64,000 nt of DNA from Gemmataceae bacterium. Its GTDB lineage: Bacteria > Planctomycetota > Planctomycetia > Gemmatales > Gemmataceae. The stretch covers positions 1 to 64,000 of the forward strand of contig JAIBBI010000013.1 in the NCBI GenBank assembly GCA_019694755.1, written 5' to 3'. The notes under the pieces are model-generated. The model was not told where the DNA came from and did not search any database. It worked only from the letters and a program-made list of their open reading frames with translations. The position numbers and the translations under genes were made by a program. Each line of letters opens with the position of its first letter. The stretch's first letter is position 1. Of the stretch, positions 6,074 to 63,901 are shown one piece after another.

Positions 6074-6101
6074 GGCAGTTCCCCGTAGTCGTGGACTGGA
6101 C

Positions 6102-7289
6102 CTAGTCTGTGTTACCGACCCCTGTCGCACCTTCAAGCGGACGGCAGATCAGTGCCGTGGGCTTCCCCAAAACCGGCGTTAACATGACGTAGCGATAGGC
6201 CGGCCCCTGCAACTTGAGATGTCGCGTCAGCGTTACTACGTCGACCGCGCTGCCACGCTTGATGATGGTCACTCGGCCGACGCCGACCGACCGCAAGTAC
6301 TCCCGCAACCGGCCCAGATGGAAAGGCAGCGACGCCTCGATCGCATACCCTCGGGCGAACGGCGTTGCGACGGCATGATCCGCGGTCAGGAACGCCGTCG
6401 ACGAATCCAGCGGGCCGGCGTCGATCCGCTCTGCCAGATCGGTCACCAAACCGGCCCGGGTAACGGCCGGGTCGGGATCGTACAGATACGCCCGCGCCGG
6501 CCCGGCCGGCCGTAGAGGCGCAGGCACGTCGGCCGCAAGAGTTGCCTGGGCCGGCAACAGGGTGGCTCGGCGGCGTGCCCCGCGGAGGCCGCCCATCCAT
6601 GCCGTGCATTCTTTGAGTTCGCCGGCCAGCGACACGAATTCGATCCCGGCATCCAGTGAATCAAGTTCGGCCCACGGCGTTGCCGGCGCGAGTTTGACCA
6701 CGGAACCCGGGTAACGCCACTGACTGAGCAGGCTGAGTGGCGGTTCCAGGTCGATGAGCCGGGCACTGCGTCGGCCGGTCGCCCGCCGATCCGGGTCGAA
6801 CACCAGCACGTCGCCGGCCGGCATCGACATCTCCCGCAAATCACCGTGCAACCATGTCACATTGTCGAGATGTCCGGATACCCGGACATTTTCCCGCGCG
6901 ATCGCCAGCCGCAGGGGATCGGCATCAATAGCGACCACCGGGCCTCGGGCCGCCAATGCCTGCGTATCGCCACCGATGCCGCAGCACGCCTCGACGACCT
7001 TGCCGACCAATCGCGAAGCGCGATACCGCGCGACTTCCGCGCAAGTGGCTTGCTCGTAACCCTCGCGGGTAAAGTACATGGCGGCCGCGAGCGGAAATTT
7101 CTCACGTGCCCGCAGTCGGAGCATGGCCTGCTCCAACGCGACGCGGGACAGGTCGGGATCGAATCGGCGAGTCAGCGACCGGTGATGCCGGAGGTAGGTC
7201 GCCTCCGTCGGTGCTAGCGCGTCGGCCGCGGCGAGCGCGACCTGCCCCGCAGGCGACAGCAACTGTTCAAATTGCTCCAGCGACATCAT
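6102..7289 (-). CDS. Class I SAM-dependent methyltransferase with THUMP-like C-terminal domain
   Basis: This cytoplasmic protein of 395 residues has a Rossmann methyltransferase core with the SAM-binding motif VVEACCGIGGDTQAL at about residues 97-111 and an acidic motif II (AIDADPLRLAIARENV). The post-motif is VLVFDPDRR, where many RNA and DNA methyltransferases have DPPY. The C-terminal third (about 285-385, ending LKLQGPAYRYVML and ICRPLEG) matches the THUMP-like domain that accompanies this methyltransferase type in many bacteria. The target is unknown; an RNA substrate is a family-based guess. The start is MMSLEQF at 7289, and the second Met is an equally possible start. It lies between the response regulator (84-base gap) and the efflux adaptor, same strand, with no obvious functional link. 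Confidence 0.85.
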   Translation of the reverse strand: MMSLEQFEQLLSPAGQVALAAADALAPTEATYLRHHRSLTRRFDPDLSRVALEQAMLRLRAREKFPLAAAMYFTREGYEQATCAEVARYRASRLVGKVVEACCGIGGDTQALAARGPVVAIDADPLRLAIARENVRVSGHLDNVTWLHGDLREMSMPAGDVLVFDPDRRATGRRSARLIDLEPPLSLLSQWRYPGSVVKLAPATPWAELDSLDAGIEFVSLAGELKECTAWMGGLRGARRRATLLPAQATLAADVPAPLRPAGPARAYLYDPDPAVTRAGLVTDLAERIDAGPLDSSTAFLTADHAVATPFARGYAIEASLPFHLGRLREYLRSVGVGRVTIIKRGSAVDVVTLTRHLKLQGPAYRYVMLTPVLGKPTALICRPLEGATGVGNTD

Positions 7290-7373
7290 CCGGGAGGTGT
7301 ATCGCCGGATGCGACATCAGTAAATGGCGGCACGCGCCTGCCCCCAGCCCCGGCCGGGCCCGCCGTAATCGGC

Positions 7374-8051
7374 TCAGCTATTCTCCAGCAACCACTGCGC
7401 TGCAAATCGATTCAATTCCGCGCCGCTGGGAAGTCCGAGTTTGGCGCGAATCCGGTCGCGGTATGTCGAAATCGTCTTGGGGCTGAGGTGCATCCTCCTG
7501 GCGATTTCGGCCCGCGTGTGCCCCCGGCCGATGAGCCGCAGTACTTCCAGTTCGCGATCCGAGAGATCGGCTACGATCGACCGCCGGGCCCCGCTGCTGT
7601 CCTGAGTCAGACCCTTGATCAGGCGGTTGCTGAACTCCTGGCTCAGATAGAGCTTGCCGGACAGGACCTCCCGCAGGGCGTCGACAATCCGGTCGGTCGC
7701 ATGCTCCTTCGTGATATAGCCCGAGGCACCCGCCCGCACGGCCCGCTCGGCGAAGTCGCCCTCGCTCTGCATGGACCAGACCAGCGTCCGGACTTTTGAA
7801 AATTGATCCTTGATGCGCTTGATGAGGTTGATGCCGTCGCCCGACTTCAGGCCGAGGTCGATAATGACCACGTCCGGCTTCAGCGTGCGGGTGAGTCTTA
7901 TGGCCTCCGCCTCGTCCTCGGCCTCGCCGCAGACGACGAGGTCCGGAGTGGTCGCGATTCGAATAGTCAACGCTTCGCGGACGGCCGGGTGGTCATCGAC
8001 GATGAGTATCCGTGCCGCCGACGGCGGCAACGGTTTAGGCGGGCGGGCCAT
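7374..8051 (-). CDS. NarL/FixJ-family response regulator (receiver plus LuxR-type HTH)
   Basis: A DNA-binding response regulator of 225 residues. The receiver domain (about residues 14-130) has the acidic pair at 19-20 (IVDDHP), the phospho-acceptor Asp65 (VVIIDLGLKSGD) and the conserved Lys in GYITKEH. The LuxR/GerE-type helix-turn-helix covers about 158-220 (LSDRELEVLRLIGRGHTRAEIA and KTISTYRDRIRAKLG). The start codon overlaps the last 17 bases of the histidine kinase gene, with AGGGA 9 bases upstream, so the two are co-translated and very probably partners. Target genes are not identifiable from the sequence. Confidence 0.95.
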   Translation of the reverse strand: MARPPKPLPPSAARILIVDDHPAVREALTIRIATTPDLVVCGEAEDEAEAIRLTRTLKPDVVIIDLGLKSGDGINLIKRIKDQFSKVRTLVWSMQSEGDFAERAVRAGASGYITKEHATDRIVDALREVLSGKLYLSQEFSNRLIKGLTQDSSGARRSIVADLSDRELEVLRLIGRGHTRAEIARRMHLSPKTISTYRDRIRAKLGLPSGAELNRFAAQWLLENS

Positions 8052-50005: not shown

Positions 50006-50590
50006 ATGGGTAGCGACAAGACCGTCTCTGATTGGATTGGTGGAGCGCGGGCCGGCGACGATGAATCCGTCCGCCGGCTCTGGGAGCGGTATTTTCACCG
50101 GCTGGCCGGGTTGGCCCGCAAGCAACTGGAAGACCTGCCTCGCCTGCCCGCCGACGGAGAAGACGTCGCCCTCAGCGCATTTCACAGTCTTTGCCGTGGC
50201 ATGGAGAACGGGCGATTCGGTGACCTCACCGACCGAGACGGCCTTTGGCGTTTGCTGGTGACAATCACTTCCAACAAAGCTCGGCGTTTGAAGCGCGACG
50301 AATGCCGACTGAAACGGGGAGGCGGGCGAGCCACCCCTGAATTGGCAGCGCTCGACCAGCTACCGCATTGTGACCCCACACCCGCAGACGCCGCTGAGGT
50401 CGCCGACGAGTGCCGGCGACTGCTGACGCTTCTCGACAGTGATGAATTGCGTTCGATCGCGCTGGCCAGATTGGACGGTTCGACAGTCGAGGAGATTGCG
50501 GCCCAACTCAAGAAAACGCCCCGGACCATCGAGCGAAAGCTTCGGCTGATTCGCGCCGCATGGAGCGAATCCGGGGACCGGTCGGAATGA
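50006..50590 (+). CDS. ECF-like sigma factor, kinase-paired
   Basis: A sigma factor of 194 residues. Region 2 runs from WIGGARAGDDESVRRLWERYFHRL through DVALSAFHSLCRGME and LWRLLVTITSNKARR. Region 4 is LLDSDELRSIALARLDGSTVEEIAAQLKKTPRTIERKLRLIR, with a good helix-turn-helix. It is of the same general type as the sigma factor at 40956 but clearly a different paralogue. The stop codon is embedded in an ATGATGA with the kinase start, so the two are translationally coupled. The 145-base divergent region upstream, shared with the atypical kinase-like gene, holds an A-rich stretch near 49947-49953 but no promoter I can name. Confidence 0.88.
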   Translation: MGSDKTVSDWIGGARAGDDESVRRLWERYFHRLAGLARKQLEDLPRLPADGEDVALSAFHSLCRGMENGRFGDLTDRDGLWRLLVTITSNKARRLKRDECRLKRGGGRATPELAALDQLPHCDPTPADAAEVADECRRLLTLLDSDELRSIALARLDGSTVEEIAAQLKKTPRTIERKLRLIRAAWSESGDRSE

Positions 50591-52983
50591 TGAAGCAATC
50601 TGCCAATGACACAGCGTCCTATTCGGCCCAGCGGCAGATCGATGCGGTGTGTGACGCGTTCGAGGCTGCGTGGGCCAATGTGCCGCGCCCGAAAATCGAG
50701 GATTTTCTCGACAGCTTTTCCGCCCAGCATCGGCCCGCGGCTCTCCGTGAACTCGTCGTCCTCGACATCTATTTGCGCGGCCAACAAGGTGAGACCGTCA
50801 CGTTCGCCGAGTATGTGTCTCGTTTTCCCGATCTTCCCTCTGCATCATTTACCTCCCTGCTGGCCGATGAACGGCCAACAATTCCGGGATTCGAAATCGA
50901 GCGCGAACTGGGCCGCGGTGGGATGGGGATCGTCTACCTCGCGCGGCAACTCACACTGGATCGACTCGTGGCCATCAAGATGGTCATCGACGGCGCGCTG
51001 ACCAGCCCGGAACGCAGGTTGCGATTCCTGTTCGAGGCGGAACTGGCGGCCCGCGTCCGACACCCGAATGTCGTTGCCATCCACGATGTCGCAGCCCATG
51101 CCGGCCGGCCCTACCTGGTACTCGAGTATGTCGATGGCGGCTCACTCGCCGACCGTCTGGCGAACGGGCGACCGACGTACCGCGAAGCCGCAGCACTCGT
51201 TGCCACTCTGGCTGACGGGATTCACGCCGCCCATATCCAGGGCGTCATTCACCGTGATCTCAAACCTGGCAACATCCTGTTGACTCGCGAAGGGTCAAAC
51301 CCCAAGGTCACGGACTTCGGGCTGGCCCGAAACAGGCATCGAAGTTCGGATCTGACCCTGACCGGTCATGTCCTCGGTACGCCAGGCTACATGGCACCGG
51401 AACAGGCGGCCGGGGAGAAAAACGTCAGCCCGGCCGTGGATGTGTACTCCCTCGGCGCGATACTTTACGAATGTCTCACGGGGCGGCGGCCGTTTGTGGG
51501 AAAGACCACCGACGAGGTCATTTCCCGATTGTTGCACGACGCCCCCGTTCATCCGCGGTCGATCGTCGGTAATATCCCTCGCGATTTGGAAGTGGTTTGC
51601 CTGAAGTGCCTTGAGAAGGAGCCGGCCCGGCGGTACGCGACAGCAGGCGACCTGGCAGTCGACCTCCGAAATGTGCTGGCCGGGCGTCCGGTCACGGCCC
51701 GGCCGATCAGCATCCCCGAATCGGCGCTCCGCTGGTGCCGTCGCCGACCGGCAGTTGCCGGGATGCTCATCATGTCGTTGATCGGGGTAGTCGCAGCGAC
51801 ATTCGGCATGGCGTATCACACACGCCAGCTTAATCAAAGTCTCGTTTCCGAGACCGCCGCCCGCAATGCGGCGGCGGCGGCGGCAATCCAGTCACGCGAA
51901 CGGCTGGAACTCGCCCTCGACGGATACCGCAACATCGTTCAACAGTTTCGCGAACTCGGCCGCGATCCGGCGACCCGCCCCGCGCAGCAGAAACTGCTTG
52001 CGGTTGCGATCACAGGGCTGGAGAAGATTGCCGCCAGTTACGAAGGAAGAGAACCCGACTATCACCGGGCGGAAGCACACCGGCAGATTGCGGTCATCTA
52101 TTGGGACCTCGGGCGCAATCGGGAGTGTATCGAGCAGCACGAGAAATGCGCAGAGATTGCACGCTCGCTCCTGTCCCGGTCTCCGCGATCGGTGTCCTTT
52201 GGCATTCTGCTCGGCAACGCCCTCTTCGGCATGCTCGATCCGGCCATGCGCCTCGATCGCACCGACTTTGCAATTGCAACCGCAATTGAAGGTTGCAAGG
52301 TACTCAAGGACTGCTTTGAATTCAATCCCGATGACCTTGGTGTTTTGAACTGCCTGTGCCAGATCAACGCCAAACTCGCGCACATTTATACTTGGAAGCG
52401 AGACACCAGATCGGCCCGGGCCACACTCGAAACCGGTCTGCCCTGGGTGCGCGATCTGCAGTCCCGCAAGCCGGAAGATAATGACACACTGTTGATCCTG
52501 AACAACCATTACGATCAACTGGCGGCACTGGCCGACGCCGAAAAGGACTGGGAACGAGCGTACGCCATGACTTCGGAACAAGCAACGGTCGCTCGCGAAA
52601 TGTTGCGGCGTCAGCCCGACGATGCGGCATGCCGACGTCGGTTACTCGTGGCAATTGGCAATCTTGGAATCTACCTTTCCGAATTGAATCGCGACGCGGA
52701 AGCGTTTCCCAAGTACGTTGAGGCGGAAGCCCTCGCACGGTCAGTCGCCAACAGCGATGCTGGCAATACCTCCGTCCAGTGTGAATGGGCCATGTCTTTG
52801 AGTCAATTGGGCACGATCGAATTGAAAGCAGGCCTCAAAAGCGATGCGAAGAAGCACTTGATCCAGTCCCATGACATCCTGGTGCGACTGCGAGACGCCG
52901 GTCGACTGGCAGACCACCCTCAGGTATTGAGAGAGCTGTTACCCCAGGTAGAGCAAACGCTGGCAAAGCTGTCCCCGAACTGA
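50587..52983 (+). CDS. Ser/Thr protein kinase with TM helix and TPR-like region
   Basis: A membrane kinase of 798 residues. A helical N-terminal region (about residues 10-90) precedes the kinase domain (about 100-365): ELGRGGMGIVYLARQ, VAIKMVID, HRDLKPGNILL, VTDFGLARN, GTPGYMAPEQ and DVYSLGAILYECLTG. A TM helix follows at about 395-415 (AVAGMLIMSLIGVVAATFGM). The C-terminal half is helical with tetratricopeptide-like repeats (YHRAEAHRQIAVIYWDLGRN, AKKHLIQSHDILVRL). It is coupled to the sigma gene upstream. Start is the ATG at 50587, or the next codon, also ATG. Confidence 0.93.
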   Translation: MMKQSANDTASYSAQRQIDAVCDAFEAAWANVPRPKIEDFLDSFSAQHRPAALRELVVLDIYLRGQQGETVTFAEYVSRFPDLPSASFTSLLADERPTIPGFEIERELGRGGMGIVYLARQLTLDRLVAIKMVIDGALTSPERRLRFLFEAELAARVRHPNVVAIHDVAAHAGRPYLVLEYVDGGSLADRLANGRPTYREAAALVATLADGIHAAHIQGVIHRDLKPGNILLTREGSNPKVTDFGLARNRHRSSDLTLTGHVLGTPGYMAPEQAAGEKNVSPAVDVYSLGAILYECLTGRRPFVGKTTDEVISRLLHDAPVHPRSIVGNIPRDLEVVCLKCLEKEPARRYATAGDLAVDLRNVLAGRPVTARPISIPESALRWCRRRPAVAGMLIMSLIGVVAATFGMAYHTRQLNQSLVSETAARNAAAAAAIQSRERLELALDGYRNIVQQFRELGRDPATRPAQQKLLAVAITGLEKIAASYEGREPDYHRAEAHRQIAVIYWDLGRNRECIEQHEKCAEIARSLLSRSPRSVSFGILLGNALFGMLDPAMRLDRTDFAIATAIEGCKVLKDCFEFNPDDLGVLNCLCQINAKLAHIYTWKRDTRSARATLETGLPWVRDLQSRKPEDNDTLLILNNHYDQLAALADAEKDWERAYAMTSEQATVAREMLRRQPDDAACRRRLLVAIGNLGIYLSELNRDAEAFPKYVEAEALARSVANSDAGNTSVQCEWAMSLSQLGTIELKAGLKSDAKKHLIQSHDILVRLRDAGRLADHPQVLRELLPQVEQTLAKLSPN

Positions 52984-52998
52984 TCCGCGTGGCGAATG

Positions 52999-55944
52999 TC
53001 ATTGGTCATTGGCCGGCTGAGCGGACCATTCGTCCCGGATCGCCTTAAACCGGGGGTCGTTTCGGAGATTGTCCAGATCGGGCTGATTCAGGAAACTCGC
53101 CGGCCGGAGTCCGCCGCGCTCTATCCACGTCAACATTTCGAACGCACGGTCGAAGTATGGTTGGCCCGCCCGGGCGTAAACGCGGGACAAAATCACTGCC
53201 GCGGAAACGCGGACCGGTTTGGCCCGGCTCAGATCATCCGCGAGGGCAGTCGCTTCCGCGTGACGGCCGAGGTGGGCCAAGTAAAGCGCCCGCGCTTCCT
53301 GGAGGTCGTCGTCGAGAGACGATGGAATCCGGAGCCCGGCATTGGCATCCGCCAGCGCGCCGGCCGAGTCGCCCAGGCAATCGCGCGCCGTCGACCGGTG
53401 GTTGTAGCTGTTTCGGAGATATCTTTGCGTATCGCCCGGAGGGTGAGGGCTCCGCATCAGTCGCTCCAGGATTTCGACGGCGCGGTCGGCGGACGCGAGG
53501 GCCTCGCGGAACCGTCCCACGGCGCTCAGCTCGATGGACAGGTTGCAGCTCACGCCCGCCTCGGTGCATTCCGCCTCGGACGAAACCGGGCCGGCCGCCC
53601 GGAGCACTTCCATGTTGCGGATGGCCTCCTGGTTGATTTCGATCGCGTCATTGAACTCGCCCGACCGGCGCGAGCGGTTCGCCAGGCCCATCAGCGCGAG
53701 GATGAAAGTCTGCCGGGTCGGCCCGTGATCGGGTTGATCGGCCACGAGCTTACGCCCGACCACGACCGCCTCCCGGGCCAGCACGAGGGCCTCGTCCAGT
53801 TTGGAGGGGTCGTGGCTCAGACAGGTCGACAGGTTGCTCAGCGTGTGCAACCGCGACGCCCGGTACTGGGCCATTCCCGGGCACGTCGTGGCGAGTTCGT
53901 CGACGATCACCAGCGCGCGGCGATAACTCTTCGCCGCTTCCGCGTGTTTGCCCATTCTCCAGTAGACGTGGGCGTAAGTCGTGTACGCGGTGCAGAGGTC
54001 GAACCGCACGTTGAAGTCCCAGCCGTGAGTCCGCACGGCCTCCAGGCTCAGCTCGATCACGCGCTCGTGCTGCGCCAGAGCCTCGGCGAGCCGACCCAAT
54101 CGCGTTAGGGCCTCGGCCCGGTGCAAGGTGGCATTGGTCAGGTCGCGGCGGGCATCGAAACTGTCGGGCTTCTCCTCGACCAGACCCGTCCGGATGGCCA
54201 CGGCCTCCTCCGCAGCGGTCAGGGCGTCGGCGGCCTTGCCGGTCTGCTTGTAAAGCTCGGCCAGCTTGGCGAGGCAGTGCGCCTTGTTCTTCCGCCGCAT
54301 CGCGTCGTGCTCCCGTGTGGCCGACGGTCCCGCGCACATCGCGATCGTCTTCCGCAATTGCGGCTCCGCCTCCGCCCACAAACCGTGATGGAGTTGCACG
54401 CACCCCAGGTAGAGATTGGCCTCGGCCCGCAGGTTCTCGATGGCGGCCGGGTCGTCACCCCGGCCGACGCACGACTCGTACGTGGCGACGCACGCCCGGG
54501 CGGCGACCAGCGCCTCGGCATTCCGCCCCATCTCCTGATTCATCTGGGCCACGCGGAACTGGGCCTTGGCGACGCGCACCAGATCGTCCACGCTGTCGGC
54601 CGACTCCTGCGCGAATTCCCGGTAGTACTCCAGCATCCGGCCGAGGAATTCCTTCTGCACGCTGGTGATCCGATTCTGCTCGTTCAGCGATTGCGACGCG
54701 ATACCGGTGGTCATGGAGTCCAGGGCGTCGCGAGTACGCTGGCGCTGTCGCCGGGCTTCGTCGCGCTGGTCGGCCGCTTCCTTTCGTGCCTGCTCCGTGT
54801 ACTCGCGGGCCTGGTTCACCGCCACGAGGCCGAGAGACAGGCCGGCGACAGCCACCACGAGCAACGACGTGCCCGTGGTCATCAGCGTGCGGTGACGCCG
54901 GCACCAGCGTGCCGCGCGGCGAATCCATGACTCCCGCTCGGCGGTGACCGGTTCGTCGGCCAACCATCGCTGCAGGTCGTCTGCCATCAAATCGGCGGCC
55001 TGGTATCTGTCTGCGGCGCGGAGTGCCATCGCCTTGCGAACGACGGCGGCCAGCCCCCTTGGAATCCGCCAGTCTGCCACCGGCGGCGGGGCGGCCGGCG
55101 TCGGCACATGACCGGTGAGCGCGTGCAGCAGCGTCGCCCCGAGGCTGTAGACATCGCTCGCCGGGCCGAGCTCATCGATCCGCCCGCCGGCCTGCTCGGG
55201 GCTCATGTAGGCCGGCGTGCCCAGGGTATCCCCCGCCCGGGTCGATGTGTCACCGCTCGGAATGCCGGTCGTGCGTCGCTCGGTAACCGGACTCGGTACA
55301 TCTTCGTTTGTTGGACCGGACCCGAATCGCCTTGCCAGGCCCCAATCGACGACGAGCGTCTCGCCGTACGGCCCGAGCATGATGTTCGACGGCTTCAGGT
55401 CGCGGTGGATGATGCCGCGAGAGTGAGCGTAACCAATCGCCTGACACACGTCGACCAGTCGCTCGATCAACTCGCGGAACGCCAGTCGGCGATCGGTGGA
55501 TCGCCCGACCGCCTTCCCGCCGTGGTAGCTTTCGATGGCCTTCAGCAGCGTCTCGCCCCGGATCAGGCGCATCGCGTAGAACAGGTGGCCGTCGTTGCGC
55601 TGGCCGAGGTCGTAGACGGGCACGACTCCGGGGTGCTCGAGCATCCCGGTGACTTCGGCCTCGCGGATGAAGCGGTTGCGGGCGTCGGTATCGAGTGCGA
55701 ACCTGTCCTGGATCTGTTTGATGGCGACTTCGCGACCGAGCCGGGTATCGACTGCCAGATAGATTTCGCCGAGTCCGCCGCGGGCGTGACTCTTCAAGAC
55801 GCGGAATCGCTGGTCGGTGGGTGCGGGGCGTTCGCGGGGAGCCGCGTCGTTCCGCGGCGTGGCGATGAGCGCGGTCGCGATGTCGTTGCTGCTCGGCGCA
55901 TGCCCGTCAGGCAGGACCTTCGTCGGAATGCTGGAAGCCGGCAT
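52999..55944 (-). CDS. Ser/Thr protein kinase with TM helix and long TPR array
   Basis: A membrane kinase of 981 residues. The kinase domain, about residues 47-335, has SHARGGLGEIYLAVD, VAIKQIQDRF, HRDLKPSNIML, the common variant DWG in place of DFG (LVVDWGLARRF) and GTPAYMSPEQ. An insertion rich in Thr, Ser and Pro lies in the activation region (about 230-255), a likely phosphorylation site cluster. A TM helix follows at about 358-378 (LMTTGTSLLVVAVAGLSLGL), then a coiled coil (ARKEAADQRDEARRQRQR). Many tetratricopeptide-like repeats fill about 450-970 (GLWAEAEPQL, GRLAEALAQHERVIEL, GKHAEAAKSYRRALVI). The C-terminus faces the end of the preceding kinase gene (15-base gap, convergent). Confidence 0.94.
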   Translation of the reverse strand: MPASSIPTKVLPDGHAPSSNDIATALIATPRNDAAPRERPAPTDQRFRVLKSHARGGLGEIYLAVDTRLGREVAIKQIQDRFALDTDARNRFIREAEVTGMLEHPGVVPVYDLGQRNDGHLFYAMRLIRGETLLKAIESYHGGKAVGRSTDRRLAFRELIERLVDVCQAIGYAHSRGIIHRDLKPSNIMLGPYGETLVVDWGLARRFGSGPTNEDVPSPVTERRTTGIPSGDTSTRAGDTLGTPAYMSPEQAGGRIDELGPASDVYSLGATLLHALTGHVPTPAAPPPVADWRIPRGLAAVVRKAMALRAADRYQAADLMADDLQRWLADEPVTAERESWIRRAARWCRRHRTLMTTGTSLLVVAVAGLSLGLVAVNQAREYTEQARKEAADQRDEARRQRQRTRDALDSMTTGIASQSLNEQNRITSVQKEFLGRMLEYYREFAQESADSVDDLVRVAKAQFRVAQMNQEMGRNAEALVAARACVATYESCVGRGDDPAAIENLRAEANLYLGCVQLHHGLWAEAEPQLRKTIAMCAGPSATREHDAMRRKNKAHCLAKLAELYKQTGKAADALTAAEEAVAIRTGLVEEKPDSFDARRDLTNATLHRAEALTRLGRLAEALAQHERVIELSLEAVRTHGWDFNVRFDLCTAYTTYAHVYWRMGKHAEAAKSYRRALVIVDELATTCPGMAQYRASRLHTLSNLSTCLSHDPSKLDEALVLAREAVVVGRKLVADQPDHGPTRQTFILALMGLANRSRRSGEFNDAIEINQEAIRNMEVLRAAGPVSSEAECTEAGVSCNLSIELSAVGRFREALASADRAVEILERLMRSPHPPGDTQRYLRNSYNHRSTARDCLGDSAGALADANAGLRIPSSLDDDLQEARALYLAHLGRHAEATALADDLSRAKPVRVSAAVILSRVYARAGQPYFDRAFEMLTWIERGGLRPASFLNQPDLDNLRNDPRFKAIRDEWSAQPANDQ

Positions 55945-56125: not shown

Positions 56126-56629
56126 ATGATCAAGTCATTGGATTCCGCGCTCGGGCATACTCTGGTCGATGAGCTCACGAGCGCGTTCGGGCAGATTCGG
56201 CACTGCGTCGATCAGCTCGACGACGAACAGGTCTGGCGTCGACCGGAAGGAGACCGCAACGCCGTCGGCAACCTGCTGCTGCATCTCGCCGGGAATCTCC
56301 GCCAGTACATCGTCAGCGGCCTGGGCGGGGCGGCTGATGTCCGCGACCGCCCGGCCGAGTTCTCGGCCCGCGGGCCGACACCCGGCAAGCGCGAACTGCT
56401 CGGGATGTTCGAGACCGTGTTCGCCGATTGCCGGACCGCGTTGGAGAAGCAGACCGCCGAAGATTGGCTGCGGGTTCGCACCGTCCAGAACATGCCCCAC
56501 ACCGGCTTGGCCGCGGCGATCCGCAGCGTGGCCCATTGCCGGGGCCACGCCCAGGAGATCATTCACATGACTCGGGGCATGCTCGGCGAGCGATACCGCT
56601 TCGCCGGCCGGGGCGCGACCTCGAAATGA
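56126..56629 (+). CDS. DinB-family protein (DUF664/DUF1572 type)
   Basis: A four-helix-bundle protein of 167 residues with the DinB/YfiT metal-binding pattern. The first His is in NLLLHLAGNLRQYI, and the other two are probably in SVAHCRGHAQEIIHMTRGML near the C-terminus. Some DinB-like proteins are metal-dependent thiol or glutathione/bacillithiol transferases; the activity of this subgroup is unknown. The stop codon overlaps the ATG of the MEMO1-like gene (ATGA), so the two are co-translated. Confidence 0.9.
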   Translation: MIKSLDSALGHTLVDELTSAFGQIRHCVDQLDDEQVWRRPEGDRNAVGNLLLHLAGNLRQYIVSGLGGAADVRDRPAEFSARGPTPGKRELLGMFETVFADCRTALEKQTAEDWLRVRTVQNMPHTGLAAAIRSVAHCRGHAQEIIHMTRGMLGERYRFAGRGATSK

Positions 56630-57834
56630 GCCGCCGACCGGATCGCCCCCGGCTGCGGCCGGGGCTGGTGGCATCACCCGACCCGGCCGTGCCGGGCACA
56701 TACATCCTCGCCGACCGGATGCGGATCACCCAGCGGCATGTCCGCGTCCGGCACGAGGAGATCATCCACGCGCAATTCTTCGACGGGCAGACGAGTCTCG
56801 ATCATGCCCGCGTCATCAGTCAGCAGAAAGGCGTCGCGACGACGATCGACCAACTGGCTGATCTCGTGGCCCGGCTGGACTCCGCGCTGCTCCTCGATTC
56901 GCCGGCGCTGCAGGATTACCTCGCGGGGCCCGTCCGCGACCCTTCGTGTGTCGGCGTCTATTCCGCTGACCCGGATGAGCTGCGCGGGCAACTGGGAATG
57001 CTGTTCGTGGAGTCCGGGTTGCCCGGCCCGAAGCCGGCAGAGGAGGACGGCGGACTACGTGCCGTCCTCGCGCCGCACATGGACTACGGCCGTGGCGGAC
57101 AAGTCTACGGCCACGCCTTCAAGGAACTGTTTGACCGCTCCGCAGCCCGGGTCTTCGTGATCGTCGGTACGTCGCACTACTCCTCGGCCCGTTTCTCGCT
57201 GACCCGGCAGAGCTTTCGGACGCCGTTCGGCGTGATGCCGACCGACGTGGAGTACGTCGACCGGATCGCCAACGAGTACGGCGACGGCGCGTTCGGCGAT
57301 CCGCTGGCCCATTTTCCGGAACACAGCATCGAGCTGGAAGTCGTCCTGTTGCAGTACCTTTACGAGCGGCGACGCGACGTGCGGATCGTGCCGCTGCTGG
57401 TCGGTTCATTCTTCGATGCGGTCCGGGTCCGGCAATCGCCGGCCGTGCGGGCCGACATCAGCCGGATGGTCTCCGCGTTGCAGGCGGCAGAGCGGGCGTG
57501 CGGCGAGGAAGTCTGCTACATCGTCTCGGGAGACCTGGCCCATATCGGCCCGAAATTCAAAGACCCGGAGCCGGTTCATGCGGCGCAGTTGGCCGCGAGC
57601 CGGCAACAGGACGCCAGGATCATCGAGCGGGCGGCCGCGGCCGATGCCGACGGCTACTTCGACGTGATCGCGGAGGAAGGTGACGCCCGGAGGATTTGCG
57701 GCCTGCCGCCGACCTGGCTGACACTGGCGGCCGCCCGGCCGAGCAAGGGCCGACTGCTGAAATATGATCAGTACGTGGAACCGACGGAAGGATTTGAAAG
57801 CGTGAGCTTTGCGAGCATGGCATTCGACCGGTGA
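56626..57834 (+). CDS. MEMO1-family protein (AmmeMemoRadiSam system protein B)
   Basis: A protein of 402 residues. About 130 N-terminal residues (RMRITQRHVRVRHEEIIHAQFF) form the extension found in planctomycete homologues. The MEMO1 core follows: APHMDYGRGGQVYGHAFKEL, VIVGTSHYSSARF, AHFPEHSIELEVVLLQYLY, IVSGDLAHIGPKF and RRICGLPPTWLTL. The metal and active-site residues of MEMO1-like extradiol-dioxygenase folds (two His, Asp/His of GDLAH and a Cys) are all present. The AMMECR1 and radical-SAM partners that often accompany it are not in the window. The start is ATG at 56626, embedded in the DinB stop. The true function of the system is not established. Confidence 0.92.
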   Translation: MSRRPDRPRLRPGLVASPDPAVPGTYILADRMRITQRHVRVRHEEIIHAQFFDGQTSLDHARVISQQKGVATTIDQLADLVARLDSALLLDSPALQDYLAGPVRDPSCVGVYSADPDELRGQLGMLFVESGLPGPKPAEEDGGLRAVLAPHMDYGRGGQVYGHAFKELFDRSAARVFVIVGTSHYSSARFSLTRQSFRTPFGVMPTDVEYVDRIANEYGDGAFGDPLAHFPEHSIELEVVLLQYLYERRRDVRIVPLLVGSFFDAVRVRQSPAVRADISRMVSALQAAERACGEEVCYIVSGDLAHIGPKFKDPEPVHAAQLAASRQQDARIIERAAAADADGYFDVIAEEGDARRICGLPPTWLTLAAARPSKGRLLKYDQYVEPTEGFESVSFASMAFDR

Positions 57835-57983: not shown

Positions 57984-58265
57984 GTTGACAAGCTACCATA
58001 ACGAGTCGCTGTTTCAAGAAAGATCCGCCAAAAATTTCCAGAAATTGACAGCCCACCCTATCGGCGGGTCCGGCTGGGAAAGCGTTGCGTTTTTCGTGTC
58101 GGCTATCCCCGGAGTTAGCGGGCAAAAATACCGGTCGTATCGAAGGTCGGGTGCTTGCGGTCGCCCTGTCCCGGCTGGTATGATGCCAACGAACCCGCCG
58201 GGCGGCGTCGGTGTCGCTCATGGGCGGTGTGGAGCCGCATTGCCCTTGTGGGAGACCCCCCGATT

Positions 58266-58904
58266 ATGAATCCGGCGGCTGGGACTGCCCTCGACACGAG
58301 TGTGCTGGTCCTCAACAGGATGTTCATGGCGATTCACGTCATTTCCGTGAAGCGGGCTTTCTGTCTGCTTTGTAAGGAACTGGCCGAGGTCGTCAGCGTG
58401 GAGGACGGCGGTCAGTTTGCGACCTACGACTTCGAATCGTGGCGTGAGCTGAGCGACTACCGGCGCACGCACTTCCGGCCCGAGCACGACGACTGGGTCC
58501 GCACCGGCAACAGCGAGATCCAGGTGCCGCGTGTGATCCGGCTGTTCTCCTACGACAAGCTGCCCCGGCAGACGGTGAAGTTCAATCGCCGGACACTGTT
58601 CGCCCGCGACGGTAACCAGTGCCAGTACTGCGGCAAGCGGTTCCCGACATCGGAGCTCAGCCTCGACCACGTCGTGCCGCGGAGCCAGGGCGGGCAGACC
58701 ACTTGGGAAAACATCGTGTGTGCGTGCGTCGCGTGCAACGTCCGCAAGGGCGGCCGCACGCCGAAACAGGCTCACATCGCGCTGATCCGCCCGCCGGTCA
58801 AACCGCGGCGGAGCCCTCTGCTCAGCCTGAAGTTGACTCAGCAGAAGTACCGGTCCTGGCAGGCGTTCCTGGATGCTGCCTACTGGGAAGTGGAACTGAA
58901 GTAA
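58266..58904 (+). CDS. HNH endonuclease-family protein
   Basis: A 212-residue protein with an HNH motif in the centre: a CxxC pair (CQYCGK) at about residues 118-123, then LSLDHVVPRSQGGQTTWENIVCACVACNVRKGG (residues about 128-160), with the catalytic DH, the Asn and a second CxxC for a zinc knuckle. The N-terminal 100 residues (TSVLVLNRMFMAIHVISVKRA) and the C-terminal tail are those of the widespread HNH protein found in planctomycetes and other phyla. Its target is unknown, and a housekeeping repair role is more likely than a homing role because it lies outside introns. The start is ATG at 58266, with GGGAG 12 bases upstream. A strong terminator follows. Confidence 0.92.
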   Translation: MNPAAGTALDTSVLVLNRMFMAIHVISVKRAFCLLCKELAEVVSVEDGGQFATYDFESWRELSDYRRTHFRPEHDDWVRTGNSEIQVPRVIRLFSYDKLPRQTVKFNRRTLFARDGNQCQYCGKRFPTSELSLDHVVPRSQGGQTTWENIVCACVACNVRKGGRTPKQAHIALIRPPVKPRRSPLLSLKLTQQKYRSWQAFLDAAYWEVELK

Positions 58905-58945: not shown

Positions 58946-61072
58946 CTAAAGCCGGTCCAGCGTCTCGATCCAGCGGACGAGGTCTTCGAACGTCGCGCGG
59001 TCGAGGTACTCCTTGCCCATGTCGGGCACTTCCCGGAAGCACACCGGAAATCGCTTCTCGGTCAGTGCGGGCTTGGCCCCGGCAATGTCCTTCGCCAGCG
59101 GGTCCTTGCCCCCGGCTACCACAAAAAAACTGAGCCGCTGCCCGGCGACGTTGTCCTTGGGCGTGCTCGCCAGCGGCGCGCCGCTCGTGGCCACGCCCCG
59201 GATCAGGTCGCGGGAGTTGAACGCGAGGTAATAAGCCATCTGCCCGCCCGTGCCCATTCCGTGCGCGACGATCCGCTGCCGGTCGACGGTGTATTGGGGC
59301 AGCACTTCCTGCAGCGTCTCGATGACAAACTCGGCTTCACTGGCCAGCCAGCCGGTCGCACTGGTCGATTTCGGGCCGATCATGATGAGATTGTTCGAGG
59401 CACACACGGGACCCCAGATCTCCATGACGTCTTTGCCCTCGCGACCCACGGCCGTCGACCCGTGCAGCCAGATCACGACACCGTGGGCGACGTTCGGGTC
59501 GTAGGTCGGCGGCACATACATCCAGTATTCCCGGTCGCGCGCCGGACTGGTCCGCTGCAACAGCCCCGTCTCCGGCGGCTTGGCGGCGGCCTTCTTTTCT
59601 TCAGCCTTCGGCTCCTCCTTCTTCGGGGCTTTGTCCTTCGCCTTTCCCTTGTCTTTGTCCTTGCCCTTCAGCAAGTCCGGTAGGTCGGGCGCGGGCTGCT
59701 TCCGCGGCGCGAGGGCCTTTCGGGCGGTCGCATCGCCGCCGCTCACCAGCACAGGTGCGTCGTCGGGCAGCAGGCCGGCCGTCAACGTCGCCGACTTCGA
59801 CTTGCCGTCGCCGGCCGTGCATTCGAGTTGGATCTCCACGCCGGCTGGCACCGTGTCGAGCATCTCGCGCAGTTGATCCCGCCCCGAAAACGCCCGGGCC
59901 TTCGCCATGCCGGGCAGTTTGACCTTCATGATGCGATCGCCCGCCTGCAGGCCCGCCTTCTCGGCCGGGCTGCCGGGGTAAACGGAACGAATAGCGACGC
60001 CCAACTCGGGGTCGTCGCGCACGGGCAGGATGCCGAGGAATGGGTGCCGGTAAGGCGGCACGTTTCCCATCAACTCCAGGTCGCGGAAAGTCTTCTCCTC
60101 GTCACCGCGCTTGACGGTGATCGCGACTTTGTCGCCGGCATACTTCGGGCCGAGAATGTGGTACGCCTGGGCCTGATTGGCCACAGGCTGACCGTCGACG
60201 GCGATCACCACGTCGCCGGGCTTGATGCCGCCCCGGGCCGCCGTCGATTCCGGCGTGACCGTGTTCACGGTCAGCGCGACGGAAAACTGATCGCTACCCT
60301 TGGGCGTGATGCCGAGCAGGCCGCGTTTCAGGTCCTTCCCGGCCTTCAATTGCGGCAGCACGGCCAGGACGTGATGAAACGGCACGGCGAAGCTGATGCC
60401 GGAGTCGTACCATTCGAAGCCGGACGTTTCACCGTCGCCGCTGGGCGAGGCGGGGACGAGGATGCCGAGCACCCGGCCGTCGGCCGCGACGAGCGGGCCG
60501 CCGTAATTCACCGGCGACACCTTGGCGTCCGTCTGGAGGCACCGGCCCCAGATCCGATTGACCGCGCTGATGATTCCGACACTCATTGAGGGCGGGTGAT
60601 CCGGGAGCGGATCGAGTGCCCGCCCGAGGGCGATGGCCCATTGGCCGATGCGGACGTCTCCCGGGGGAACGGCTTCGGGCACGGGCAATCCCGTCGCTTC
60701 GATCTTCAGGAGCGTGAGCATGCGCGAGTGATCGATCGCGACGACTTTGGCCACGAGCCGGCCGGGCCGGCCGGGCACGCTGACCGTGATCGCCGTCGGC
60801 TTGTCGGCGAAGTTGAACGAACTGGTAATGACATAACCGTCGGCCGCGACGACGAGGCCGGTCGTGGGGCCGGTCCCTTTGCGAATACCGGAATCAGTCG
60901 GCCCGCCGGTGCCGGCCCGGCCGCGACCGCCCGTGGTCTCGATGAGCACGACGGACGGAGCGACCTTCCCGGCGGCCGCCTGGAGCCACTGCTCATTGGC
61001 CGCGTCGAGGTCCGGCTGAGCCAGAGCCGGGGATGCCGTCAGAAGTAGGCCGAGCCACACGTACCGACGCAT
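58946..61072 (-). CDS. Secreted pseudo-protease with two PDZ domains and a C-terminal esterase-like domain
   Basis: A 708-residue protein with a signal peptide at residues 1-18 (WLGLLLTASPALA). Residues about 30-250 have the trypsin/HtrA fold, but the catalytic positions have changed: the usual TNxHV region is VITSSFNFADK (no His) and GNSGGPL is VNYGGPL (Ser replaced by Tyr). Two PDZ domains follow (about 255-345, with STAARGGIKPGDVVIAVDGQ; 350-440, with SPAEKAGLQAGDRI). A Lys/Ala/Pro linker at about 465-510 leads to an alpha/beta-hydrolase domain (WMYVPPTYDPN, VVIWLHGS) whose elbow reads HGMGTGGQ, with Gly where Ser should be. Both catalytic sites look lost. It lies downstream of two related genes. 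Confidence 0.88.
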   Translation of the reverse strand: MRRYVWLGLLLTASPALAQPDLDAANEQWLQAAAGKVAPSVVLIETTGGRGRAGTGGPTDSGIRKGTGPTTGLVVAADGYVITSSFNFADKPTAITVSVPGRPGRLVAKVVAIDHSRMLTLLKIEATGLPVPEAVPPGDVRIGQWAIALGRALDPLPDHPPSMSVGIISAVNRIWGRCLQTDAKVSPVNYGGPLVAADGRVLGILVPASPSGDGETSGFEWYDSGISFAVPFHHVLAVLPQLKAGKDLKRGLLGITPKGSDQFSVALTVNTVTPESTAARGGIKPGDVVIAVDGQPVANQAQAYHILGPKYAGDKVAITVKRGDEEKTFRDLELMGNVPPYRHPFLGILPVRDDPELGVAIRSVYPGSPAEKAGLQAGDRIMKVKLPGMAKARAFSGRDQLREMLDTVPAGVEIQLECTAGDGKSKSATLTAGLLPDDAPVLVSGGDATARKALAPRKQPAPDLPDLLKGKDKDKGKAKDKAPKKEEPKAEEKKAAAKPPETGLLQRTSPARDREYWMYVPPTYDPNVAHGVVIWLHGSTAVGREGKDVMEIWGPVCASNNLIMIGPKSTSATGWLASEAEFVIETLQEVLPQYTVDRQRIVAHGMGTGGQMAYYLAFNSRDLIRGVATSGAPLASTPKDNVAGQRLSFFVVAGGKDPLAKDIAGAKPALTEKRFPVCFREVPDMGKEYLDRATFEDLVRWIETLDRL

Positions 61073-61094
61073 GGGGTGTTTCCGTGAGAGGTGC

Positions 61095-62147
61095 TTATTT
61101 CTGCGGCTTGCGCTCGCCGAGTTTCAACTCGACGGGCTCGAGCCGATCGCCCCGGCGGACTTCGAGTTTGATGACCTGACCGGCATGCGTCCGGCTCATG
61201 ATGGCGCGGAACGCCGCGACGCTGATCACCGGTTCGCCGTCTACGTACACGATCAGATCATCCGGGCGTAATCCCGCGGCCGCGGCCGGCGAGCCGGGGA
61301 CGGTCTCTTCCACATAGGGCGGCGTGCGCTCGACGACATTGGGAACCAGCACGATGCCGTGGTATCCGCCGTCGCCCGCGCTCTTCTCAGGCTTCGCCGT
61401 CGGCTTGTACTGCCCGCGCATGCCCAGCGACACGAACTCGGCGAGGCTCACAATCCGCTTCGCTTCGCCGTCGCGGACTTCGATTCGTGCCTGGACCGGC
61501 ACGGCATAGTTCACCCAGGTGTCGGCGGCCGCGTTCCGAAGTTCCTTGCCGATCAAGCCGAGCAGCGTCCCGCTCCGCGAAACGAGCGCTCCCCCGGCCG
61601 CCCCCGGGTTGTTGGTGACGGCGTCGAGCACATACACCTCGCCGGTGTACGGGGCCTCGAAGATTCCGCGCTGCAGCGGCAGGCGAGTGTACGCCTGGAT
61701 GACGCCCCGCTGCACGCTCATCGCCTCGTCGCGGGTTGCGATCTCGAAGCAGTTGGTGAATCCGAGGATCCAAGTCCCCGGCAGGGCGAGTGGCCGAGCC
61801 GCGGCGGCGGCCACGTCGAAGAAAGGCAGATCTTCGACCATCTCCACCTTGATCAGCGCGGCATCCAGCGCGGGTTCGATGACCACAAGTTTGGCGGAGC
61901 AACGCCGGCCGTCGGGCAGGTGGACGCGGAGTTCGGGCGTGTCGAGCAGGCTCCCGGCCGCGGTGAGGACGTAGCCGTCGGGCGAGACGACAATCCCGGT
62001 TCCGTACGCGACCACGCCGCGAAAGCCGCCGGAGCCGAACACCTTCACCATCCGGGCGTTGGTCGCCTGGGCGATGGTGGCGTAGCGGTCCTGAGCCGGG
62101 GCCGCGGCAGCCAGGAATACCAGGGCGATCGTCGCGCGGATCTTCAT
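61095..62147 (-). CDS. Secreted trypsin-fold pseudo-protease with PDZ domain
   Basis: A protein of 350 residues with a signal peptide (residues 1-18, IRATIALVFLAAAAPA). The trypsin-like domain at about 25-230 retains the Asp (EPALDAALIKVEM) but has LTAAGSLLD where active HtrA proteins have TNxHVV, and NNPGAAGGAL where they have GNSGGPL, so both His and Ser are missing. A C-terminal PDZ domain is present at about 255-340 (YVEETVPGSPAAAAGLRPDDLI). I chose the ATG at 62147, which overlaps the stop of the upstream HtrA-like gene (ATGA); the open frame extends further to 62501, but only within that upstream gene. Likely a substrate-binding or regulatory protein. Confidence 0.87.
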   Translation of the reverse strand: MKIRATIALVFLAAAAPAQDRYATIAQATNARMVKVFGSGGFRGVVAYGTGIVVSPDGYVLTAAGSLLDTPELRVHLPDGRRCSAKLVVIEPALDAALIKVEMVEDLPFFDVAAAAARPLALPGTWILGFTNCFEIATRDEAMSVQRGVIQAYTRLPLQRGIFEAPYTGEVYVLDAVTNNPGAAGGALVSRSGTLLGLIGKELRNAAADTWVNYAVPVQARIEVRDGEAKRIVSLAEFVSLGMRGQYKPTAKPEKSAGDGGYHGIVLVPNVVERTPPYVEETVPGSPAAAAGLRPDDLIVYVDGEPVISVAAFRAIMSRTHAGQVIKLEVRRGDRLEPVELKLGERKPQK

Positions 62148-63901
62148 GATTTGGGGAGTTGGTAGGTGCGAATGAGCAACGTGCCGTAATGCTGATCGCC
62201 GAACTGGATGTCGATCCGGTGCGGGAGCTTTCGGCCGCCGGTCTCCTTCAGGCTGCCGAAGCTGATTTCGCACGGGTCTTCTCCGCGGGCCTGCGAGACT
62301 TCGCCGCCGAGCAGTCGGCCGTCGGCCGCGTAGTACCACTTGCCCTTCACGGCGGCGTGTTCGGTGCGAAGCACCCCGGCATCGATGCGGCGCAGCGCGG
62401 GGCGGCCCGGCTTGCCCTCCGTCGGGTAATACGGCTCGGTGCCACCGTGCGTGAATTCGCCTTCGAAACCTTTGGCCGCCTGCGTCTGCAGTCGGTGCCA
62501 ATGATAGAGGGCCATGAGGAGTCCGCCGCTACCGGGCGGGTCGCGAAGCTCGCGCGGGTCGGCCGCGGCCTTGAGCGGCTCCATTGCGAAGATCACGCCG
62601 GCGAGGTCCGCGCTGATGACCGTCTTGGTGGTCTTGTTCTCGGCATCGGGCCGTTCGGCAATCGTAATCTTGATCGGCTGCTTCTGACCCTTGCGCTCCA
62701 ACTCGCCCTCGATCACCCATTCCCCGGTCATGCCGGTGAAGTCGCCGTGACTCCGCGCCTTGGTCAGGAGCGTGTCGCGGGCCTGCTCGTTGAAATGGTA
62801 ATTGGCGTAGCCCGTCTTCGCCTTGAAGAGTTTCATCGCCTCGGCCGAGCGCTTTTCCGGCTCGGGCCGCGGGCCGCGCTCCGGGCGGGGGCCCCGCTCC
62901 TTCGGCTGGGCCTCCTCTTTCGGCAATAGCCCTTCAAGGCGGACCAGGATTTCCTTCTTCACATTGTCGCGGCGATAGGTCAGCGGTAGCCGCCAGCCCT
63001 TCGGGTAGATGCCGAGGACGTTCTTGTACTGGTTCACGCTCGTGACCGGCCGGCCGGCGAACTCGACGAGTTCGTCGTCCGGGTTCAGTCCCCGGCGGAA
63101 CGCGTCGCAATCTTCGATCATCGCCTGCACGAGGATCTTCGGCGTCGGGTCGTCTTCCGATTCCGTGGTCTTCACCGTCGCGCCGAGCGTGGCGTGGTCG
63201 GTGTCGATGCCGGCATAGAGGTGCCCGAGGAAGTTCTTGATCTGGTTGATGCTGATGGCATAGCCGACGCCGGAGTTCACCCGACCGCGCTTCTCGAAGC
63301 TTCCCCGGCCGTTGATGCCGATGAGCTCGCCGGCGTCGTTGAACAGCGGGCCGCCCGAATTGCCCGGGTTGATCGAAGTATCGATCTGAATGCAATCGGT
63401 GTACTCGAGCAGCGTCCCGGCCGGGTACTGATACCGGTGGACGCCGCTGACCATGCCGAACGTCACGGTCGGCGTGAAGTCGGTCGCCACGAGGAACGGG
63501 TTGCCCATCGCGATCGACCAGTCGCCCGCCTGCACCTTGTCCGAATCACCCATCGGCACGAAAGGAAACGGCTTGTCCTTTTCCTTCGGCAGCAGCTTGA
63601 TCAGGGCGACATCGCCGACGCGGTCGAGCCCGACCAGCACGGCGTCGTAAAGAACGCCGTCGGCGAGGCCGCACTTCATCGTGGGGCCGACACCCTGCAC
63701 GACGTGAAAGTTCGTGAGCGCGAAGCCGGCCGGGTCGATGAGCACGCCCGAGCCGCCGCCCTGGCCGCCGTTGGCGAACACGGCGACTACGGCGGGACGA
63801 ATCTTCCCGACCACGGCAATCCGCCGGGCTTCCGCCTCGCGCACAATGTCCGGCGGCGCGGCCCCCGCGACAAGCCCGGCCAGTATCAGTGCATACCTCA
63901 T
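62144..63901 (-). CDS. Secreted HtrA/DegP-like serine protease with PDZ domain and long C-terminal domain
   Basis: A 585-residue exported protease. Residues 1-15 are the signal peptide (MRYALILAGLVAGAA). The trypsin-like domain, about 25-230, has a complete triad: His in FALTNFHVV, Asp in DRVGDVALIKL and Ser in NPGNSGGPLFNDAG. A PDZ-like region (about 235-325) contains FRRGLNPDDELVEFAGRPV. A charged Pro/Arg/Glu linker (about 330-350) leads to a C-terminal domain of about 230 residues (MKLFKAKTGYANYHFNEQ, GEWVIEGELERKGQKQPIKI, IDIQFGDQHYGTLLI) that I cannot assign and that may bind substrate or the cell surface. First gene of a three-gene operon whose other two protease domains are degenerate. 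The ATG at 63901 faces about 100 bases of upstream sequence. Confidence 0.93.
   Translation of the reverse strand: MRYALILAGLVAGAAPPDIVREAEARRIAVVGKIRPAVVAVFANGGQGGGSGVLIDPAGFALTNFHVVQGVGPTMKCGLADGVLYDAVLVGLDRVGDVALIKLLPKEKDKPFPFVPMGDSDKVQAGDWSIAMGNPFLVATDFTPTVTFGMVSGVHRYQYPAGTLLEYTDCIQIDTSINPGNSGGPLFNDAGELIGINGRGSFEKRGRVNSGVGYAISINQIKNFLGHLYAGIDTDHATLGATVKTTESEDDPTPKILVQAMIEDCDAFRRGLNPDDELVEFAGRPVTSVNQYKNVLGIYPKGWRLPLTYRRDNVKKEILVRLEGLLPKEEAQPKERGPRPERGPRPEPEKRSAEAMKLFKAKTGYANYHFNEQARDTLLTKARSHGDFTGMTGEWVIEGELERKGQKQPIKITIAERPDAENKTTKTVISADLAGVIFAMEPLKAAADPRELRDPPGSGGLLMALYHWHRLQTQAAKGFEGEFTHGGTEPYYPTEGKPGRPALRRIDAGVLRTEHAAVKGKWYYAADGRLLGGEVSQARGEDPCEISFGSLKETGGRKLPHRIDIQFGDQHYGTLLIRTYQLPKS

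Follow-up and report, generated by a model that had tools for sequence, protein, structure and literature searches.

A conserved planctomycete gene trio encoding an HtrA-like protease and two predicted HtrA-type pseudo-proteases

Three genes arranged head to tail on the minus strand of a contig from a Gemmataceae bacterium (JAIBBI010000013.1, here C250) encode one HtrA-like serine protease with an intact catalytic triad (gene 1) and two HtrA-type pseudo-proteases that are predicted to be non-catalytic (genes 2 and 3). The trio is interpreted, with a probability of roughly 0.55, as an ancient module in which an active envelope protease of the HtrA type would work with two non-catalytic paralogues as its partners, a view based on sequence and on analogy with a known protease pair. 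Most Planctomycetia carry such a working envelope protease beside two long-dead, strongly selected look-alikes that probably aid or control the active enzyme. The window, which is the whole stretch of DNA analysed, comprises positions 1-64000 of the contig, which extends to 67902 in a 5.64 Mb genome of 335 contigs; among named organisms, its best relatives belong to the Gemmataceae and to other Planctomycetia. The three open reading frames were first picked out by inspection of the DNA alone (hereafter the sequence-only reading) and all were recovered at the same positions (Table 1). As that reading had noted, genes 1 and 2 overlap, the overlap consisting of four bases (ATGA, 62147-62144), and 22 bases separate genes 2 and 3. 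All three proteins begin with a short basic segment followed by a hydrophobic stretch resembling a Sec signal peptide (judged by eye), suggesting that they are exported to the periplasm via Sec.

Each protein matches the Pfam family Trypsin_2 (98.8, 62.0 and 66.3 bits for genes 1, 2 and 3, respectively; cut-off 27.6). Residues were counted in alignments of loci from the order Gemmatales and from the other orders of the class, excluding rows gapped at the column in question (3-7 per column, mostly fragments). Gene 1 (132 rows) displays the catalytic histidine in 125/125, the aspartate in 126/126 and the serine in 126/126 readable rows; the corresponding values in a set of 80 named loci, partly from the same assemblies, are 67/67, 68/68 and 72/72. 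The proposal that gene 1 retains its triad (His66, Asp97 and Ser182) thus holds in every readable row. The sequence-only reading also assigned a PDZ domain to all three proteins. The PDZ matches of genes 2 and 3 exceed the Pfam cut-off, but that of gene 1 does not (PDZ_2, 20.7 bits; cut-off 27); here the assignment is backed by PDZ_2 matches at E<=0.1 in 28 of 30 members of the gene 1 alignment and by an AlphaFold2 model (mean predicted local distance difference test score (pLDDT) 88.2), residues 21-328 of which align with protease-plus-PDZ structures. With a His-Asp-Ser triad and a PDZ domain, the features by which HtrA/DegP membership was judged, gene 1 shares the fold of DegP, DegQ, DegS and HtrA. 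By sequence it is HtrA-like, lying outside the curated Do subfamily (NCBIfam TIGR02037, 207.4 bits versus a cut-off of 416.2). Gene 1 differs from DegP-type enzymes by the addition of a C-terminal β-rich domain (approximately residues 353-585). For this region, four matches to DUF4292, presumably akin to lipoprotein-carrier-type folds, were obtained among 30 whole proteins, the best at E 1e-4. When C-terminal pieces were searched, DUF4292 was matched at E 0.15-0.18 in four of ten, one of which also matched LolB (E 0.029), all under the cut-off. These matches hint weakly at a lipoprotein-carrier-type fold; the structure comparison with the gene 1 model was filled by protease matches.

Gene 2 contains glycine (Gly65) at the position of the catalytic histidine and alanine (Ala184) at that of the serine, while Asp95 is kept, as is Gly182, which corresponds to the oxyanion glycine (chymotrypsin position 193). 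Histidine occurs in 0/135 rows of the order and class alignment and serine in 2/136; the aspartate position is occupied by Asp in 102/135 rows and by Glu in 26/135, and Gly182 (136/136), together with Thr62, is a near-invariant residue of the pseudo-site. Neither His nor Ser is present in the 40 class loci considered separately (0/40 rows each) or among the named loci (0/79 and 0/81, respectively). The loss of both residues, initially noted in a single protein, therefore extends across the family. An alignment error masking the histidine was considered and rejected: His is found one residue later (position 66) in 49/135 rows, where it is variable and never accompanied by Ser184. The two rows with serine (L082 and L176) were similarly rejected as ancestral active forms; because they lack the histidine and branch at separate points of the Gemmatales clade, the change to serine seems to be local in each. 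By sequence, the gene 2 profile aligns with DegP structures across both the protease and PDZ domains, and its loop reads like that of the alanine-bearing DegP chain 3mh4.

The pseudo-site of gene 3 is occupied by Phe86, Met118 and Tyr190 at the His, Asp and Ser positions and by Val188 at the oxyanion glycine. The sequence-only reading was right that His and Ser had gone, but its statement that loss was confined to the same two positions as in gene 2 does not stand, since the aspartate and the oxyanion glycine have been lost as well. In the order and class alignment the triad residues are found in 0/131 (His), 1/131 (Asp) and 0/130 (Ser) rows, the serine position being filled by Tyr (129/130) or Val (1/130), and glycine at position 188 in 0/130. 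The class loci alone (His 0/36; Tyr 35/36 and Val 1/36 at the serine position) and the named loci (His 0/77; Tyr 74/75 and Trp 1/75) give the same pattern. Tyr190, Asn189 and Ser186 are near-invariant. Homologues of gene 2 or gene 3 with an intact triad were sought in these alignments and none was found. The AlphaFold2 model of gene 3 (mean pLDDT 87.9) has DegP (3otp) as its best Foldseek match (E 3.1e-28), and profile alignments to solved DegP-type chains place the serine site of genes 2 and 3 in the same register. Genes 2 and 3 keep the HtrA protease fold and PDZ domains and, unlike DegP-type enzymes, have lost the catalytic residues family-wide; on this evidence they are HtrA-type pseudo-proteases, predicted to be non-catalytic. 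In addition, gene 3 encodes a second PDZ domain and a C-terminal hydrolase-like domain, neither of which featured in the sequence-only reading. The latter, whose strands and helices are present in the AlphaFold2 model, resembles short-chain polyhydroxyalkanoate depolymerases (NCBIfam NF050058, E 3.6e-11, 43 bits versus a cut-off of 150). At order level (the class-level alignment of the domain was poor and was not used), the nucleophile serine expected of such depolymerases and of α/β-hydrolases was found at position 607 in only 1/94 readable rows; Asp was found at 657 in 93/94. As the hydrolase nucleophile is also missing, both enzyme-like domains of gene 3 look dead.

The possibility that genes 2 and 3 have begun to decay only recently was rejected, since their open frames, ratios of non-synonymous to synonymous substitution rates (dN/dS) of 0.02-0.19 and near-invariant pseudo-site residues speak for function. 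In 11 related genome pairs dN/dS was 0.025-0.144 for gene 1, 0.038-0.167 for gene 2 and 0.022-0.191 for gene 3; the dead copies are constrained as tightly as the live enzyme. Chance does not explain the residue losses, as these are kept across the class. A tree of 79 rows, although containing long branches, resolves each of the three genes as one clade with 100% bootstrap, indicating that the losses in genes 2 and 3 were separate and preceded the radiation of the class. Of the five further HtrA-like rows from the genome, four cluster next to gene 1.

The three genes are not only conserved but remain together, as the sequence-only reading would require of functional partners. A gene 2 match (E<=1e-20) is present in 343/397 Planctomycetia genomes and 95/102 Gemmatales genomes, and the order 1-2-3, side by side, in 81/96 Gemmatales loci, 36/40 loci from other Planctomycetia orders and 67/80 named loci. 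The 15 remaining Gemmatales loci comprise six that stop at a contig edge and nine in which gene 1 or 3 is farther off or was not seen. The 40 class loci were picked for family spread from gene-2-positive genomes and are consequently uninformative on gene-2-negative ones. A four-base overlap of genes 1 and 2 (ATGA or GTGA, in the frame of gene 2) recurs in 37/121 pairs. Genes 2 and 3 are either both present or both absent in 61/61 class genomes covered by the searches for each (58 with both, 3 with neither). In one family (f3) the whole trio is lacking: gene 2 is missing in 13 genomes and gene 3 in 2/2, and gene 1 was found in 0/13 (E<=1e-60). By the same threshold gene 1 accompanies gene 2 in 7/8 gene-2-positive genomes outside family f1, the sole miss being G113, whose locus (L217) has gene 2 alone. 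The fixed losses and the conserved association support a partner role for genes 2 and 3, as initially suggested, and a regulatory one is the best supported, with the proviso that decoy, scaffold and regulator are indistinguishable from sequence.

Beyond the class, 29 genomes of a 391-genome phylum sample contain a gene 2 match (E<=1e-55). A gene 3 match is present in all 29 and, judged from match positions alone, in 27 of them it follows the gene 2 match on the same strand at a distance of under 500 bases. In 12 of the 29 (G693, G463, G447, G493, G590, G650, G454, G701, G598, G677, G665 and G441) the open frame containing the gene 2 match is 861-1290 codons long, approximately the combined size of genes 1 and 2, and these frames may be candidate gene 1-gene 2 fusions in some lineages. 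The 37 pattern matches on viral contigs included none related to the trio. A tentative extension, to which we assign somewhat less than even odds, is that much of the Planctomycetota may have inherited a hetero-oligomeric HtrA machine in which a single catalytic subunit is joined by two dead ones that are obligatory, its genes often closing a MoxR/DUF58 cluster (see below).

In the proposed mechanism gene 1 would cut and genes 2 and 3 would bind, most likely within a periplasmic complex of the three proteins. In HtrA enzymes, which assemble as trimers or larger complexes, the active site of a protomer is set by loops of its neighbour, and variants with the serine changed to alanine hold substrates; such variants are among the structure matches of the gene 1 model. 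Gene 2 may be the natural counterpart of this laboratory trap, holding unfolded proteins or C-terminal peptides uncut, as it could do because its oxyanion loop (NPGAAGG) and PDZ domain are kept. It would then hand substrate over to gene 1, or activate that enzyme by way of the protomer-to-protomer contacts of HtrA, the gene 2 protomer acting as a built-in trap or an allosteric switch. A scaffold, or a cargo-binding arm or receptor, is the more likely role of gene 3, in view of its degenerate Tyr site, two PDZ domains and dead hydrolase domain.

That the effect on gene 1 would be activation or substrate delivery is suggested by MamE/MamO, the nearest precedent, in which an active HtrA-type protease is encoded with a degenerate trypsin-like relative; in the passages of PMC4794232 considered here, the pseudo-HtrA MamO is required for MamE-dependent proteolysis. 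According to the same passages MamO, like gene 3, has lost the glycine at chymotrypsin position 193, but its serine position is taken by Thr and its position 193 by Glu, and it carries a TauE domain, features that genes 2 and 3 lack (PMC4794232). The planctomycete trio also differs in having two pseudo-proteases rather than one. Genes 2 and 3 fall outside the MamO model NF040961 (43.1 and 22.5 bits, respectively, versus a cut-off of 800), and scores against the curated MamE model were likewise far under its cut-off. A survey of 91 prokaryotic genomes identified 42 inactive homologues among 966 serine proteases (PMC2605481), and its passages considered here describe no operon of active and inactive HtrA proteins in planctomycetes. 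No paper on planctomycete pseudo-proteases or on the trio operon was found by title or abstract start in open-licence PubMed Central. The pairing of an active HtrA with a pseudo-HtrA is already known; the literature searched yielded no class-wide trio with two distinct pseudo-proteases of which one has a dead hydrolase domain. The magnetosome pair looks like a niche invention; a class-fixed trio under equal selection would, if the module reading is true, make active/dead HtrA pairing a general strategy. The trio would also provide a natural set of dead HtrA subunits for studying mutual control between protomers, and an entry point to the planctomycete envelope, which is poorly known, and to its MoxR clusters.

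Several observations weigh against a dedicated partnership between the three proteins. The co-absence of the genes in family f3 may reflect one loss of a linked block. In G051 gene 3 (8.45 Mb) is far from genes 1 and 2 (1.11 Mb) on a single 9.38-Mb contig, and 3/40 class loci (L212, L213 and L215) have no gene 3 adjoining genes 1 and 2, a match being present elsewhere in the genome. Gene 1 is approximately 5 kb upstream of gene 2 in L104 and L111, and was not seen nearby in L125, L176 and L217. Finally, given the frequent MoxR neighbourhood described below, the dead copies could instead be working for other proteins encoded in that cluster. The four cases in which gene 3 stands apart (G051, L212, L213 and L215), and the retention of the PDZ domains and HtrA fold in both pseudo-proteases, fit an alternative in which genes 2 and 3 are stand-alone chaperones or adaptors that bind peptides or proteins in the envelope, sharing an operon with gene 1 but forming no complex with it. 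This is unlikely, though the most serious of the rivals; the strict class-wide co-occurrence and order of the genes and the adjacency of genes 2 and 3 beyond the class speak against it.

The neighbourhood of the trio bears on a further alternative. Ahead of gene 1 a chain of genes in the same orientation recurs, of which gene A contains an NPCBM domain and genes B, C and D have no clear Pfam family; where the sequence suffices, A, B and C are present upstream in 89/111, 87/103 and 83/95 loci, respectively. The trio often follows a MoxR/DUF58 cluster: at least 9 of 20 genomes have a same-strand MoxR-type AAA match approximately 15-18 kb upstream of gene 2, and at least 11 of 16 have a DUF58 match 14-19 kb upstream. 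In many Planctomycetia (among loci L075-L218) the A-D chain sits between the MoxR/DUF58 pair and the trio. The trio could thus be the periplasmic processing or assembly arm of a MoxR/DUF58 machine, its pseudo-proteases docking the products of genes A-D rather than regulating gene 1, as the frequent same-strand position of A, B and C and the MoxR and DUF58 matches 14-19 kb upstream might suggest. This is judged improbable, more so than the chaperone alternative, since gene A was not found upstream in the source genome and 21 others of the 111 loci and yet the trio persists. In the source genome the best gene A relative is on another contig, and the usual neighbours give way to genes for an ABC ATPase and an FtsX-type permease, which directly adjoin the 5' side of gene 1 and diverge from it on the opposite strand. 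The trio, intact there without its usual neighbourhood, accordingly behaves as a unit, in keeping with the module reading. Residual enzyme activity through other residues is very improbable, for although His66 in gene 2 and the near-universal Tyr190 in gene 3 offer conceivable substitutes, the former is variable and in no row paired with Ser184, and gene 3 lacks all three catalytic residues together with the oxyanion glycine.

Table 1. Positions of the trio, its domains and neighbouring or related features (window coordinates unless a locus or contig is named).
Feature	Position	Strand	Remarks
Gene 1, predicted exported HtrA-like serine protease	62144..63901	-	585 aa; His66-Asp97-Ser182, PDZ, C-terminal β-rich domain
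Gene 2, predicted exported pseudo-protease	61095..62147	-	350 aa; Gly65/Asp95/Ala184, oxyanion Gly182, one PDZ
Gene 3, predicted exported pseudo-protease	58946..61072	-	708 aa; Phe86/Met118/Tyr190, Val188, two PDZ, C-terminal hydrolase-like domain
Gene 3 α/β-hydrolase-like domain	58949..59566	-	approximately residues 503-708; elbow HGMGTGG (Gly607), Asp657 kept
Terminator-like stem-loop	58910..58938	-	13 pairs, 10 G-C, then T's; immediately 3' of gene 3
A-D chain, example	L199:11991-13181	-	
A-D chain, example	L082:13188-14285	-	
A-D chain, example	L141:12252-14237	-	
A-D chain, example	L080:82-2463	+	
ABC ATPase and FtsX-type permease	L009:6890-10901; C250 63889-67900	+	
HNH endonuclease gene	58155-58904	+	convergent with gene 3
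DinB/DUF1572-like gene, then Memo-family gene	56126-57834	+	same strand
Protein-kinase gene	52999-55944	-	also with TPR repeats
Protein-kinase gene	50560-52983	+	
Tandem trypsin-like protein	L010 (G000:C62) 3452-7813	-	1453 aa; Trypsin_2

The stem-loop that follows gene 3 is a consensus match only, nine such sites being present in the region versus 4.5 expected. Beyond it is the HNH endonuclease gene; a gene family that resembles it (likeness judged by eye) is found downstream of the trio, on the strand opposite to it, in 17/131 loci, none of them outside Gemmatales. Farther along the window are the DinB/DUF1572-like and Memo-family genes, and two large protein-kinase genes that lie end to end on opposite strands, 15 bases apart. 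Elsewhere in the same genome, a single protein contains two tandem trypsin-like domains, both with GNSGG-type serine motifs, in an HtrA-like architecture unlike that of the trio.

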